From Leptospirales bacterium (GTDB lineage: Bacteria; Spirochaetota; Leptospiria; Leptospirales; Leptospiraceae), in the NCBI GenBank assembly GCA_013297885.1, contig JAAFIR010000009.1:5001-69000 (forward strand): 64,000 nt of DNA, given 5' to 3'. The notes beneath the pieces were generated by a model that saw nothing but the letters and a program-made list of their open reading frames with translations, had not been told where the DNA came from and did no database searches. Both the position numbers and the translations under genes were made by a program. Shown piece after piece: positions 1,601 through 53,007 of this stretch (its first letter is position 1; each line of letters starts with the position of its first letter).

Positions 1601-2379
1601 ATACCAATAATTCCTTTCATTCTAAAATCAGTAATAATTCCAAGAATCTTATTTAAAATTAAAGGCAAACTTGATTCGAATGATTTGTTTTGAAAATTAT
1701 CAAAAAGTTCTTTTTCTAATTTTTCATTAAACTTAAAATTTAATTTAAAATTGAATTTAGTTTTTTCTTTTGTTTCCAAAATACAATCATTAATTTTTTT
1801 TAGAGCTATACAACCGTCTTTAATAATATTTTGAGAATCTTGTTCAATTTTAGAAGTGTTTCCAGAAGCTAAAATCCTAACATGCTCCATTAACCTTAAT
1901 GGAACTGTTCCTTTTTTACTTAAACCAATTCTTTCTAGCTGTAAAATAGAATCTTGAAACCCATTAATTTCAACTGTTCCTCTATAAATTTGATAAATTA
2001 AATTAGTTTCAATTTCCAAAAAATTCCTGATCGCACCAGCAAAATATTTTAATTCAAGTTTTGCCATTGGATGAAATTCAAATTTTGAATATTTTGAGAT
2101 TTTAGCTTCCTGCTCTTCAAGAATTTTATTAAAAGTTTCACCTTTTCCAAGTTCTCTTTTATTTTTTAATTCAATTTGTTTTTTCTTTAGTTCCTCAAAA
2201 AAAAGGATTTCTTGTTTTAAGAAATTTTCAATATTTCCTTTTTCGATTAAACAATGATTGTATCTCTCTTCAAAACCTTTTAAACTAAAAATACTTGGAC
2301 TTTCTAGTGAATAAGTTTTATATTCTAATCTTATTTTACTAAGAAGTTTTTCTTTGTCTAAATTACTTAATTCAGGCAT
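1597..2379 (-). CDS. Hypothetical protein, helical, 260 aa
   Basis: I do not recognise the family. The protein is Lys/Glu-rich, predominantly helical by composition, and has no signal peptide or membrane segment. A charged stretch around residues 60-95 could form a coiled coil. It overlaps the upstream gene by 8 bases and the downstream glycosyltransferase by 4, so it is translated within a compact operon. The context gives no function beyond possible association with the glycosyltransferase. Coding potential is good: it is long, unbroken and packed edge to edge with its neighbours. Confidence 0.7.
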
Positions 2380-3436
2380 TTTCTTTGACTTTTTTTTGAA
2401 AATTATCTAAGTTTCTTCTTAAATAATTTAAATCATTCATACAAAATATTATCCCAGACTTTGCATCTTCAAACTGGGATTGTTGAACAGAATTTAAAAT
2501 CCTCATGTCAACTTTTTTATTTAATAAATTTAAAACCTCAGTATTCATTTTTGAATATTTATTTGATAAAATAATTAAATTATCCAATAAATCCCACTGT
2601 AATATGTAATCCAATTTTATTTCAGTCGAATTTAAAGACGATATAAAATCTTTTTGGATTCTATTATAATTCATAGTGTAATGGTTAATAGATTTTGGAA
2701 AACTTGTTATCTCTTTTAACTTAGCTGAATAAGTTTCTAATGGAATAAAAATTTCTGTATCAAATTCCCTACTTATATTTGATAAAATATTTTTATTTTC
2801 TGATGGATCACCAATTAGTTCAAAATAACGAGAATTCTTTAAGTTTACAATAGAAGAATTTATTCTATCTTTGTCTTTTCCTAAAGACTTTAATATTTTT
2901 GCAAAATAAAATTTATATTCTTGAATTGTTGTTGGGATTTCAATTTCATTTTCTAATTTTTTAGGTTCAATTTTTTTAAAACTTGTTTCCTCAATGTTTA
3001 AATCAAAATCTTCTTCTATATCTTCTTCTACTGCTTTTATTTTACTAAAAGTAAAAATAGCTTTTATTTTAGTTAAAGTCTGATTGAATTTTTCAAACTT
3101 AAGAGGATTGCTTTTTTCCTCTTCAAATTTTGATTCAACTTCTTTTACTTCTGATTTTGATTGTTTAATTGATTCTAAAAACTCTTCATCTTCAAAATCA
3201 GTTTCAGATTCAAATGATTGTTCATTTTGTTCAAAAGTTTTTTTTGTGAGAGAGGAATTTTTTTGGAGTTCCGATTTAGTGTGTAATCTAAAAATTTCTA
3301 ATTTTCTAGTATCTTTAACAAACCGAACAACATACTTATTTCCTTCTCTATCCTTGAATTTTTTGTTCATAAAATTCATATTTAACTTTTTTTTTAACTC
3401 TTCAATTGAGTTTATACTAATATAATCTTCAGCCAT
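2372..3436 (-). CDS. Hypothetical protein with acidic central region, 354 aa
   Basis: Not recognised. The N-terminal 60 residues look like a small globular domain (KFKDREGNKYVVRFVKDTRKLEIFRL is split here as KFKDREGNKY then VVRFVKDTRK). A Ser/Glu/Asp-rich, probably disordered stretch runs from about residue 75 to 165, followed by a helical C-terminal half. No signal peptide or membrane segment is visible. It overlaps both operon neighbours by 8 bases. The domain layout, a small head, an acidic linker and a helical tail, suggests a cytoplasmic scaffold or regulator, but that is inference. Confidence 0.68.
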   Translation of the reverse strand: MAEDYISINSIEELKKKLNMNFMNKKFKDREGNKYVVRFVKDTRKLEIFRLHTKSELQKNSSLTKKTFEQNEQSFESETDFEDEEFLESIKQSKSEVKEVESKFEEEKSNPLKFEKFNQTLTKIKAIFTFSKIKAVEEDIEEDFDLNIEETSFKKIEPKKLENEIEIPTTIQEYKFYFAKILKSLGKDKDRINSSIVNLKNSRYFELIGDPSENKNILSNISREFDTEIFIPLETYSAKLKEITSFPKSINHYTMNYNRIQKDFISSLNSTEIKLDYILQWDLLDNLIILSNKYSKMNTEVLNLLNKKVDMRILNSVQQSQFEDAKSGIIFCMNDLNYLRRNLDNFQKKVKENA

Positions 3437-22533: not shown

Positions 22534-22603
22534 AAGCGATAGTGATACAAAATGTCGCGAAGCGAGTGCGAAGCACGGAACCATTTTGTAGCACGGTTTT
22601 TCC
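22534..22603 (+). repeat. Structured intergenic repeat, copy R1
   Basis: Block A is AAGCGATAGTGAT. Then comes an outer stem TACAAAATG (22546-22554) pairing with CATTTTGTA (22582-22590). It encloses two mini-hairpins with GAA loops, TCGC-GAA-GCGA and GTGC-GAA-GCAC. Block B, AGCACGGTTTTTCC, follows. It is much richer in G+C than its surroundings and lies after the LamG pseudogene. Copy R2 near 30.9 kb is the same element in opposite orientation. Confidence 0.88.
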
Positions 22604-22787
22604 AAGGGAATTAAGAATTTTGAATGAAGAATTAAAAATTGAAACTAAGAATTTTTTACTTCTTTTTCAAATTTATCATTTTTAATTTTTCATTCTTTTC
22701 TAGATCAAATGGAAAAAATCACCCAAAAAAAAATTTAGAGTAAAATAAATGTAGAAAAATTAAAGCCCAAGTTTCAATTTGTTTTTT
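22604..22787. other. AT-rich intergenic spacer beside repeat R1
   Basis: No gene is visible. It contains loosely repeated GAATTAAAAATT/TTAATTTTTCATTC-type strings in both directions. Similar strings adjoin repeat R5 (about 52.85 kb) and the palindrome at 55.6 kb. Confidence 0.5.
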
Positions 22788-30788: not shown

Positions 30789-30926
30789 TTTTAAAATTTA
30801 GGACGATGTCAGCTTTAAAGTATAGAAAGTAGAATTTTATTGATAAAAGGTGATATTTTAATTATTCAAAAACAATCTAGTAATTATTCATTTTAATATA
30901 TTTCAACTACTCTCTATACTCTTAAA

Positions 30927-30994
30927 CTGACCCGGGCTACAAAATGGTTCCGTCCTTCGGACTTGCTTCGCAACATTTTGTATCCCTATCGCTT
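30927..30994 (-). repeat. Structured intergenic repeat, copy R2
   Basis: Read on the minus strand it has block A (AAGCGATAGGGAT), the outer stem TACAAAATG/CATTTTGTA, mini-hairpins TTGC-GAA-GCAA and GTCC-GAA-GGAC, then GGAAC and block B (AGCCCGGGTCAG). The 45-base core differs from R1 at exactly four positions, which form two compensatory pairs. It lies between the rhodanese and ankyrin genes. Confidence 0.88.
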
Positions 30995-39377: not shown

Positions 39378-39500
39378 GTAGCGAATACGAGAGTTAGGGA
39401 TTGAAACGTGGTCAAAAAATTTTTTTATAAAATTTTTTGACCGAAGTTGAAAGCCCGACCTTTTATTTTGCAAAGCAAAAAAAAAGGGAACTCCCTAACT
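39378..39500 (+). repeat. Structured intergenic repeat, copy R3 (three-way junction layout)
   Basis: Outer stem AGTTAGGGA (39392-39400) pairs with TCCCTAACT (39492-39500). Inside are a hairpin with 14-base arms, GGTCAAAAAATTTT (39410-39423) and its complement (39429-39442), and a second, TTTTGC-AAA-GCAAAA (39466-39480). Conserved blocks are GGGATTGAAACG before hairpin one and GTTGAAAGCCCGACC between the two. Its right end overlaps the stop codon of the Ser/Thr kinase gene. Confidence 0.85.
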
Positions 39501-50721: not shown

Positions 50722-50895
50722 AGCCCAAAAACCATTTAGAATTTAGGAAATTTCTTAACAAGGGAAAAAAAAATTGGTTTAGATAGTTTTTTTGGTGATT
50801 TTTTTTACTTAATCTTTAAGCTATTAGGAAATTGACGAATAAACAGTATTATCTAGTGAAAATAAAATTGGTTTAGGTAAAAAAACCGGGCTTTT

Positions 50896-51271: not shown

Positions 51272-51290
51272 ATTTAATTTTCTCAACACT

Positions 51291-51424
51291 AAGCGAAAGT
51301 GATTGAAACGGCGTCAAAAAATTTCGTATGAAATTTTTTGACGGGAGTTGAAAGCACGGTTTTTTTCACCTACGGGTAAAAATACTTTATCGCATAATCA
51401 AAGTTAGGTGAAAAAAATTCGCCC
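51291..51424 (+). repeat. Structured intergenic repeat, copy R4
   Basis: Block A AAGCGAAAGTGATTGAAACG, hairpin one CGTCAAAAAATTT (51312-51324) with its complement (51331-51343), block B GTTGAAAGCACGGTTTTTTT, hairpin two TTTTTTTCACCTA (51360-51372) with TAGGTGAAAAAAA (51405-51417), block C ATTCGCCC. It lies upstream of the aminotransferase, with its C end toward the gene. Confidence 0.87.
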
Positions 51425-51470
51425 ACCTCACCCCAACTAGATTTCTATCGGACAGTTTTAAACTTAAAGC

Positions 51471-51500
51471 CCCTCTCCAAGTTTTACAACTTAGAGAGGG
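51471..51500. repeat. Hairpin between R4 and the aminotransferase
   Basis: CCCTCT and AAGTT (51471-51483) pair with AACTT and AGAGGG (51488-51500), with a two-base internal mismatch. A partly similar GGAGAGGG/CCTCTC string recurs to 51534. It has no T tail, so it is not a clear terminator. Confidence 0.55.
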
Positions 51501-51631
51501 AGAACTCCTCTCTGTTTCGTTAAATGGAGAGGGTTATTAACAAAAAAATTTATCGATTTATGCAGAGTTGGATGAGGTAAAACAACTTGAATCCAAATAT
51601 TTTTGAAAAAAAATGACATTAGGAGTGAATT

Positions 51632-52846
51632 ATGTATTTAGTTGCAAAACGTTTAGATGTAGTGGAGCCTTCACCAACTCTCGCAATTACTGCAAGAGCA
51701 AATGCTTTAAAAGCAGAAGGAAAAGATGTTGTTGGTTTTGGAGCAGGTGAGCCAGATTTTGATACCCCTGAATTTATAAAAAATGCAGCAAAACTTGCAA
51801 TGGACAAAGGTCAAACTAAATACACACCAGTTTCTGGAACTGTTACTTTAAAAGATGCAATCATCAAAAAATTTGAACGTGACAATTCTTTAAAATACGA
51901 AAGAAAAAATATCATCGTTGGTGTTGGTGGAAAACAAGTAATCTATAATTTTTTTATGGCAACCTTAAATCCTGGTGATGAAGTAATTATTCCTGCACCG
52001 TATTGGGTGAGTTATGCGGACATTGTGAGACTTGCTGAAGGTGTGCCAGTGATCGTTCAAACTAAACTAGAAAATAATTTTCAAATCACATCGGATGAAT
52101 TAAAAAAAGCAATTACACCAAAAACAAAAGTTTTTATTTTTAATTCTCCATCAAACCCAACAGGTGCAATGTATTCCAAAAAAGATATTGAAAGCTTATG
52201 TGATGTTTTAATCAAAGAAAAAATTATTATCATGTCAGATGATATTTATGAAAAAGTTACTTATGATGGAATGGAATTTTTTAATCCTGCAATGCTTTCA
52301 AATGAACTCAAAGAAAGAACTTTTATTGTAAATGGAGTTTCAAAAGCATACTCTATGACTGGTTGGAGAATTGGTTATGGTGCAGGAAATCCTGAAATCA
52401 TAAAAAACATGGACACTATGCAAGGTCAATCCACTTCAAACCCGACTTCCATTTCTCAAGCTGCAGCTGAAGAAGCTCTTAAAGGAGACCAAAGCTGCAT
52501 CACTGAAATGGTAAAAGCATTTGATGATCGCAGAAAAAAAATTGTAGCTGCCTTAAACAACATCAAAGGTGTAAATTGCAGAACTCCTCAAGGTGCGTTT
52601 TATGTTTTTCCTTATATCACTGGTGTTTATGAAACTGATGGATTTAAAAAACTTCTCACTGCAAATCCAAACACTTCCAAAAGCAAATTATTTTGTGATG
52701 TGCTTTTAGAAAAATACGAAGTTGCTTGTGTTCCTGGAATTGCATTTGGAGATGATTCTGCAATACGTTTGTCATACGCTTTAGGTCAAGCAAATATCGA
52801 CAAAGGTGTAGAACGAATTGCAAAAATGATTTCTGATTTGGGATAG
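51632..52846 (+). CDS. Class I/II pyridoxal-phosphate aminotransferase, aspartate type
   Basis: 404 residues. SPTLAITARANALKAEGKDV, GAGEPDFDTP, KYTPVSGTVTLKDAI, APYWVSY, NSPSNPTGAMY, SDDIYEKVTYDG and the PLP lysine in NGVSKAYSMTGWRIGYG give the aspartate/prephenate aminotransferase subgroup (aspB-like). AGGAG precedes the ATG. The gene appears richer in G+C than its surroundings and is isolated between inverted copies of a structured repeat (R4 and R5), so it may have arrived or moved as a unit. Confidence 0.95.
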   Translation: MYLVAKRLDVVEPSPTLAITARANALKAEGKDVVGFGAGEPDFDTPEFIKNAAKLAMDKGQTKYTPVSGTVTLKDAIIKKFERDNSLKYERKNIIVGVGGKQVIYNFFMATLNPGDEVIIPAPYWVSYADIVRLAEGVPVIVQTKLENNFQITSDELKKAITPKTKVFIFNSPSNPTGAMYSKKDIESLCDVLIKEKIIIMSDDIYEKVTYDGMEFFNPAMLSNELKERTFIVNGVSKAYSMTGWRIGYGAGNPEIIKNMDTMQGQSTSNPTSISQAAAEEALKGDQSCITEMVKAFDDRRKKIVAALNNIKGVNCRTPQGAFYVFPYITGVYETDGFKKLLTANPNTSKSKLFCDVLLEKYEVACVPGIAFGDDSAIRLSYALGQANIDKGVERIAKMISDLG

Positions 52847-52883
52847 ATAAGAATTAAAAATTATAAATGTTGAATGATAAATT

Positions 52884-53007
52884 GGGCGAATTTTTTTCAA
52901 ACAGTGGGTCTTGACCCGCTGTTTGAAAAAAACCGTGCTTTTCGCTACTTCTGAATCCTCGGGTTAAAACCCGAGGCTATTCAGAAACGCTTCAATCACT
53001 TTCGCTT
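52884..53007 (-). repeat. Structured intergenic repeat, copy R5 (inverted to R4)
   Basis: On the minus strand: block A AAGCGAAAGTGATTGAAGCG, a hairpin with arms CTGAAT plus CTCGGGTT, block B AAAAGCACGGTTTTTTT, a hairpin CAAACAG-x-GGGTC with its complement (one mismatch), and block C AATTCGCCCA. Blocks match R4 nearly base for base while both hairpins are unrelated in sequence. It lies 38 bases after the aminotransferase stop. Confidence 0.87.

Follow-up and report, generated by a model that had tools for sequence, protein, structure and literature searches.

REP sequences and BIMEs are moved by RAYT (Y1) transposases (PMC2817692), and REP sequences are targeted by the IS110-type elements IS621, ISPpu9, ISPpu10 and ISPa11 (PMC1525189, PMC8450116). 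The BOX repeats of Streptococcus pneumoniae (PMC3049150) and the mitochondrial double-hairpin elements (PMC5910586, PMC2800124) are small dispersed repeats able to form hairpins. The Flavo-1 RNA motif (Rfam RF01705; Weinberg et al. 2010, PMC2864571) is listed by Rfam as an sRNA. Several 5′ transcripts of F. psychrophilum coincide with Flavo-1 matches, and in the transcriptome of this organism such matches occur in sense or antisense alike, many of them outside transcribed regions (PMC9723704).

The locus described here lies in a 64,000-nucleotide stretch of DNA, analysed as a whole and referred to as the window (G+C 27%), taken from a metagenome assembly of a member of the Leptospiraceae, which comprises 72 contigs and 4.6 Mb. 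As an earlier note had described, two repeats, R4 (51293–51424, + strand) and R5 (52884–53005, − strand), stand in opposite orientation around a class I/II aminotransferase open reading frame (ORF) of 404 amino acids (51632–52846, + strand; PF00155, E = 2.5e-79). Block A (AAGCGAAAGTGATTGAA) is exact in both copies (51291–51307, +; 52991–53007, −), as is block B (AAGCACGGTTTTTTT; 51352–51366, +; 52926–52940, −), and block C (AATTCGCCC) is found at the inner ends of R4 and R5, with the C ends pointing to the aminotransferase. Both intervening hairpins are unlike between the two copies yet foldable in each (RNA z −4.7 and −8.9; DNA z −6.9 and −9.1), again as the note had it. Block A has 193 matches in the genome at up to two mismatches against 1 for a reversed-pattern control, and its recurrence is therefore not due to chance. 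We consider it reasonably probable that R4 and R5 are copies of a non-coding, high-copy mobile DNA repeat whose identity resides in its folded strand, and that the aminotransferase is not its cargo.

A three-helix fold maintained by compensatory changes

When 76 copies are read side by side, the apparent constant blocks and random hairpins resolve into one fold. This consists of helix P1 (GCGAA/TTCGC), an A, helix P2 (GTG/CAC), an A·G mismatch, two pairs, tandem G·A mismatches, helix P3 (two to three pairs) and hairpin 1, followed by GG, hairpin 2, the P1′ strand and CC, and most bases of R4 and R5 take part in it. In R4 (+ strand), the P1 5′ strand GCGAA (51293–51297) pairs with 51418–51422, with compensatory changes among copies, and the 5′ strand of P2, the inner A·G and tandem G·A mismatches and P3 (GTGATTGAAAC, 51299–51309) pairs with 51347–51357. 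The fold and the analysis of exchanged halves described below place exchangeable hairpin 1 (GCGTCAAAAAATTT...) at 51312–51343. Block B in terms of the fold (51347–51359) comprises the P3′ and P2′ strands and the GG linker and forms the junction of both exchangeable halves. It is followed by exchangeable hairpin 2, folded with a T7...A7 stem (51360–51417), and by block C, made up of the covarying P1′ strand TTCGC and CC (51418–51424).

R5 (− strand) scores 94.5 bits with covariance model R1 and adopts the same fold, with P1 formed by 53001–53005 and 52886–52890, hairpin 1 at 52949–52987, P2′ at 52935–52937 and hairpin 2 at 52891–52932. The window holds a further full copy at 39391–39495 (+; 79.4 bits) with the P1 variant GAGTT/AACTC and the P2 variant GGG/CCC, and a diverged copy at 22536–22724 (+; 25.4 bits, E = 2.5e-4) with the P1 variant GCGAT. 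A second diverged copy, read by eye at 30801–30992 (−), has P1 GCGAT/ATCGT and P2 GGG/CCC and is related to the copy at 22536 through a 75-nt inverted match of 87%. A probable remnant, consisting of block B with one mismatch and a hairpin-2 stem, lies at 50879–50893 (−).

The fold is conserved through compensatory changes. P1 takes the forms GCGAA/TTCGC, GCAAA/TTTGC, GCGAT/ATCGC, GCGTT/AACGC, GAGTT/AACTC, GTGAG/CTCAC and others, and P2 takes nine complementary forms, including GTG/CAC, GGG/CCC, GAG/CTC and ACG/CGT. In a 46-copy alignment, two-sided changes occur in 26 of the 29 pairs (15.8 when shuffled), standard pairing holds in 95.5% of 1,302 pair cells (74.8% when shuffled) and 270 cells are compensated (70.5 when shuffled), values that no shuffle reached. 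The pairing signal is destroyed by sliding the partner strand by one column. In a set of copies gathered with the pairs under test left out of the search, pairing at P2.2 holds in 49 out of 49, with four pair types, against 24.6 expected. DNA energy parameters give back the fold in R4 and R5.

Similarity between copies often starts about 19 bases before P1 and stops within a few bases after CC, and these points are taken as the approximate ends of the element. In R4 the 5′ edge (51274–51292, +) is a T-rich stretch followed by CAACACTAA (consensus TTTTTCAATACTAA), and it is common, to about position −19, to otherwise unrelated copies, with support from position frequencies.

Exchange of hairpins and the relationship to Flavo-1

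The earlier note viewed the constant blocks with replaceable stems as signs of a recombining repeat, and suggested aligning the copies for evidence that hairpins move between them. When the halves are compared, 46 copy pairs have 5′ halves at least 90% identical and 3′ halves less than 60% identical, and a further 18 show the reverse pattern; both halves are alike in a single pair (L122; 100% and 97%). The 5′ half of R5, for example, is 98% identical to that of the copy at L014, the 3′ half of which is unrelated. With one half alike and the other different in 64 pairs against 1, both hairpins are exchanged between copies by swapping of halves at block B, which bears out this part of the note. 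BOX and mitochondrial double-hairpin elements, compared here by description, share with the three-helix repeat the character of small, dispersed, hairpin-forming repeats, and are also modular in build; a constant three-helix core with two hairpins that are exchanged around it is, to our knowledge, specific to the present case.

Copies with the GGAAATCC class of hairpin 1, which have the common core GAUUGAAGCGGAAAUCC...GAUUGUAGCGGAAAGC, are Flavo-1. If the curated covariance-model cut-off of 42 bits is taken as the lower limit for membership, Flavo-1 is present in at least 60 copies in the source genome, two in G006, one in G033 and at three plasmid loci. R4 and R5 have no Rfam match above the cut-off; among weaker matches, R5 aligns best with Flavo-1, at 24.9 bits and so below it, and no match is reported for R4. 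Full-length model R1 likewise recognises the Flavo-1 copies above the cut-off on Paraclostridium bifermentans plasmids and on plasmid pE30-1 of Leptospira kobayashii, and P1 and the remaining fold are present in these copies too. Rfam Flavo-1 is the inner half of the three-helix element. Whereas Rfam models this inner half only, here it is enclosed by P1 and joined to a second hairpin, its hairpin 1 comes in several classes that are unrelated to one another, and its behaviour is that of interspersed repetitive DNA. Because plasmid and Leptospiraceae copies match the full-length model, the motif is broader than the Bacteroidetes and larger than modelled.

A pattern scan for flavobacterial and viral copies gave 24 exact-pattern loci, none of the 17 scanned reaching the Rfam cut-off, and most look like chance; matches to the core on Rhizobium and Paracoccus plasmids are also chance, with no model match. 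On five P. bifermentans plasmids the Flavo-1 element is surrounded by about 900 bp of non-coding sequence that is 76–79% conserved (L092, L093, about 1960–3030). In G033 a Flavo-1 match (L082:1112–1904) overlaps the end of an apparent adenine-methylase gene beside a restriction-type gene and may represent an intragenic insertion.

Genomic placement and inserted elements

Across 590 kb of contig sequence (all of contigs 15 and 28, and 130 kb of contig 17) the covariance model finds 67 copies, which scales to about 520 per genome if the distribution is uniform, or an estimated 500 in round figures; in 1.09 Mb of sequence selected because it surrounds copies, the model detects 184. The repeat, of about 130 bp, ranges from about 75 to 290 bp and is typically 95–160. 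Copies occur in both orientations across the chromosome, and their orientation relative to neighbouring genes is nearly even (47/41/38/33). They are dispersed between genes: in a sequence that is 81% coding, 181 of 183 copies fall outside ORFs. For genes directed toward the 3′ end of an element, the stop codon is at a median distance of 22 bp, compared with about 135 bp for the closest gene at the 5′ side.

An exact search for block A in 40 relatives gave no match. The covariance model finds the element, with a different sequence and the same fold, in six of seven relatives from the family (congeners and other genera), with per-genome counts that are lower bounds from 64 candidates scored per genome, and does not find it in 53 more distant Spirochaetota. 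A joined-flank search for empty sites returned self or weak matches only and no convincing empty site, and no target duplication or direct repeat was noticed at copy flanks. In G004, a duplicated stretch of 912 bp (L065, L072, 1425–2336) contains an element, followed by the remnant of a protein that carries an intein-like (HINT-like) motif, and gives no clear boundary information.

The repeat is used as a target by another mobile element. A shared terminal sequence, joined to the element at one fixed point of P1, is found on at least 13 contigs, and the other side of this insertion, which encodes a transposase C terminus, is found at 11 contig ends (right junctions at L029, L052, L122, L142 and L190–L198; left junctions at L033, L039 and L201). 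The insertion, present in at least 13 copies of the repeat, accounts for many of the assembly breaks, and an internal relic lies at L187:5570–5850. A full-length protein from a congener (L209:574–1596), the C terminus of which is 63% identical to the transposase fragment of the source genome, has the DEDD and Transposase_20 domains of the IS110 family. A PF02371 search of the source contigs gave no match, its own IS110-type copy not being assembled, probably because the insertion sequence breaks the assembly. IS110-type elements are known to target REP, and the present insertion, with such an element at one fixed site in many copies of a repeat, parallels them; the target here is the P1 strand of the three-helix repeat rather than a REP sequence. 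A second repeated sequence (TTTTGCATAACTATTTGGATTTAG...), perhaps another insertion sequence using the three-helix repeat, adjoins GAGTT-type copies at the C5, C30, C56 and C66 contig ends (L018, L204, L048, L050).

The only Y1 (IS200-like, Y1_Tnp) transposase gene found in the genome (L057:1408–1830) is flanked by different palindromes, CAGTGGGT...ACCCACTG, with the nearest three-helix copy about 560 bp upstream; no RAYT gene flanked by the three-helix repeat was found when this gene was checked. The CAGTGGGTCAAGACCCACTG palindromes of its flanks also occur inside hairpins of the three-helix repeat: 16 Y1-type palindromes lie within elements (2% of the sequence) and 14 outside.

The repeat resembles REP sequences and BIMEs in its high copy number (being extragenic at more than 100 copies per genome), in forming a fold, in its doublets and opposite-orientation neighbours and as the target of IS110-type insertion sequences. 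It differs in being longer, with a three-helix fold of about 130 bp where REP is a single imperfect, GC-rich palindrome headed by GT(A/G)G; GTAG is seen only inside some hairpin 1 classes. We also considered a MITE of a DDE transposon and rejected it, as the P1 end helix covaries rather than being fixed and no flanking direct repeat was noticed. Nine copy pairs lie 31–97 bp apart (L035, two at L038, L041, two at L037, L024, L121 and L115, from the own-genome sample). These are all the pairs closer than 150 bp, they are always arranged head to head with their 5′ ends facing, and together with other close inverted pairs they are reminiscent of REP doublets and BIMEs (PMC2817692).

Nature of the repeat

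The earlier note read the two inverted copies as the ends of a mobilised unit carrying the aminotransferase, which would resemble a composite transposon. Such a reading would fit the inverted orientation of neighbouring copies closer than about 4 kb (21 inverted to 5 direct, p = 0.0025) and the differing gene distances on the 3′ and 5′ sides of the element. Every family genome searched, however, has a clear orthologue of the gene (78–88% identical, with two near-identical matches in G001), and at none of these loci are repeats nearby or the neighbouring genes the same. A composite transposon would be present or absent as a whole or occur in more than one place, and neither a second unit nor a target duplication was found. 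Spacing is random, with 13 pairs closer than 1.5 kb and 14.6 expected from random placement, and beyond 4 kb orientation is even (18:20); a strict alternation of orientation along the chromosome, seemingly strong in tiles around copies, is largely gone once whole contigs or long stretches of them are read, leaving only the effect under 4 kb. As two copies at a spacing of 1.5 kb are to be expected given the density, the bracketing of the aminotransferase needs no special explanation, the orientation bias excepted. The gene is above the mean in G+C, as the note had sensed (34.1% against 28.0%, s.d. 4.3, for 607 ORFs longer than 600 bp), but unremarkably so, because 8% of genes are as high. The proposal of a 'cassette-like or recombining element' therefore survives in its second half, through the exchange of hairpin halves, and not as a cassette with cargo, which we regard as highly improbable in view of the orthologues without repeats; the aminotransferase looks like an ordinary bystander.

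Functional RNAs tolerate G·U far better than A·C. In the three-helix repeat, mismatches are G·T in 49 and A·C in 46 of 3,325 pair cells, compared with 6 G·T and 2 A·C in a control of only six tRNAs; with the two equally common, neither strand is favoured and the fit to a functional RNA is poor. Conserved A·G and G·A mismatches are typical of RNA too, and the elaborate covarying fold with its RNA-like non-standard pairs, the sRNA listing and the 5′ transcripts at F. psychrophilum matches (PMC9723704) would be in keeping with Flavo-1 and its extension being a true structured RNA, trans-acting or mRNA-linked, highly amplified and selected as a transcript. This we think unlikely given the mismatch counts, the nearly even orientation to neighbouring genes, the hundreds of copies in one genome with far fewer found in congeners (as lower bounds) and the published matches in sense and antisense alike, many outside transcribed regions (PMC9723704), although equal G·T and A·C could also arise by neutral decay of dead copies of an RNA-derived source. 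Alternatively, template-switch repair within palindromes (quasi-palindrome correction) might keep the arms complementary in what is the inert debris of an extinct element, as the equal T and A runs in the arms of hairpin 2 and the very few imperfect pairs might indicate. We hold this to be distinctly unlikely: P1, P2 and P3 are only 2–5 bp long and split by loops and a whole hairpin, yet covary, the repeat has conserved unpaired bases, and the near-identical L122 pair argues for recent spread or duplication. On balance, the sequence evidence suggests that the three-helix repeat is mobile DNA and not a gene for an RNA, and Flavo-1 is probably not primarily an RNA gene. Weighing against mobility are the joined-flank search, which gave no convincing empty site, the absence of target duplications at copy flanks, and the different palindrome beside the one Y1 transposase gene.

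For a mobile DNA repeat, we infer movement as a folded single strand. The strand would fold once it is unpaired, as may happen at a replication fork or through extrusion, and an enzyme acting in trans, our best guess being an HUH/Y1 single-strand transposase, would copy it into intergenic sites. Hairpins may then be exchanged at block B through template switching or conversion, and other elements land in the copies, palindromic repeats in the hairpins and the IS110-type insertion sequence in P1. The aminotransferase would simply lie between two independent insertions.

More tentatively, and as a possibility to which we lean somewhat less than not, Flavo-1 may form half of a type of mobile DNA repeat not recognised before, which would occur at least in Spirochaetota, on Bacillota plasmids and, from the literature, in Bacteroidota. 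The heritable identity of such a repeat would reside not in its sequence but in the three-helix fold of its single strand, in which hairpins are interchangeable. The family offers a concrete and testable answer to an open annotation question, the nature of Flavo-1, and extends the targets of guide-directed IS110 systems beyond REP. It also serves as a warning that strong covariation alone is no proof of an RNA gene. The family displays modular hairpin exchange between copies, and lets fold-preserving evolution be tracked over hundreds of copies in one genome.
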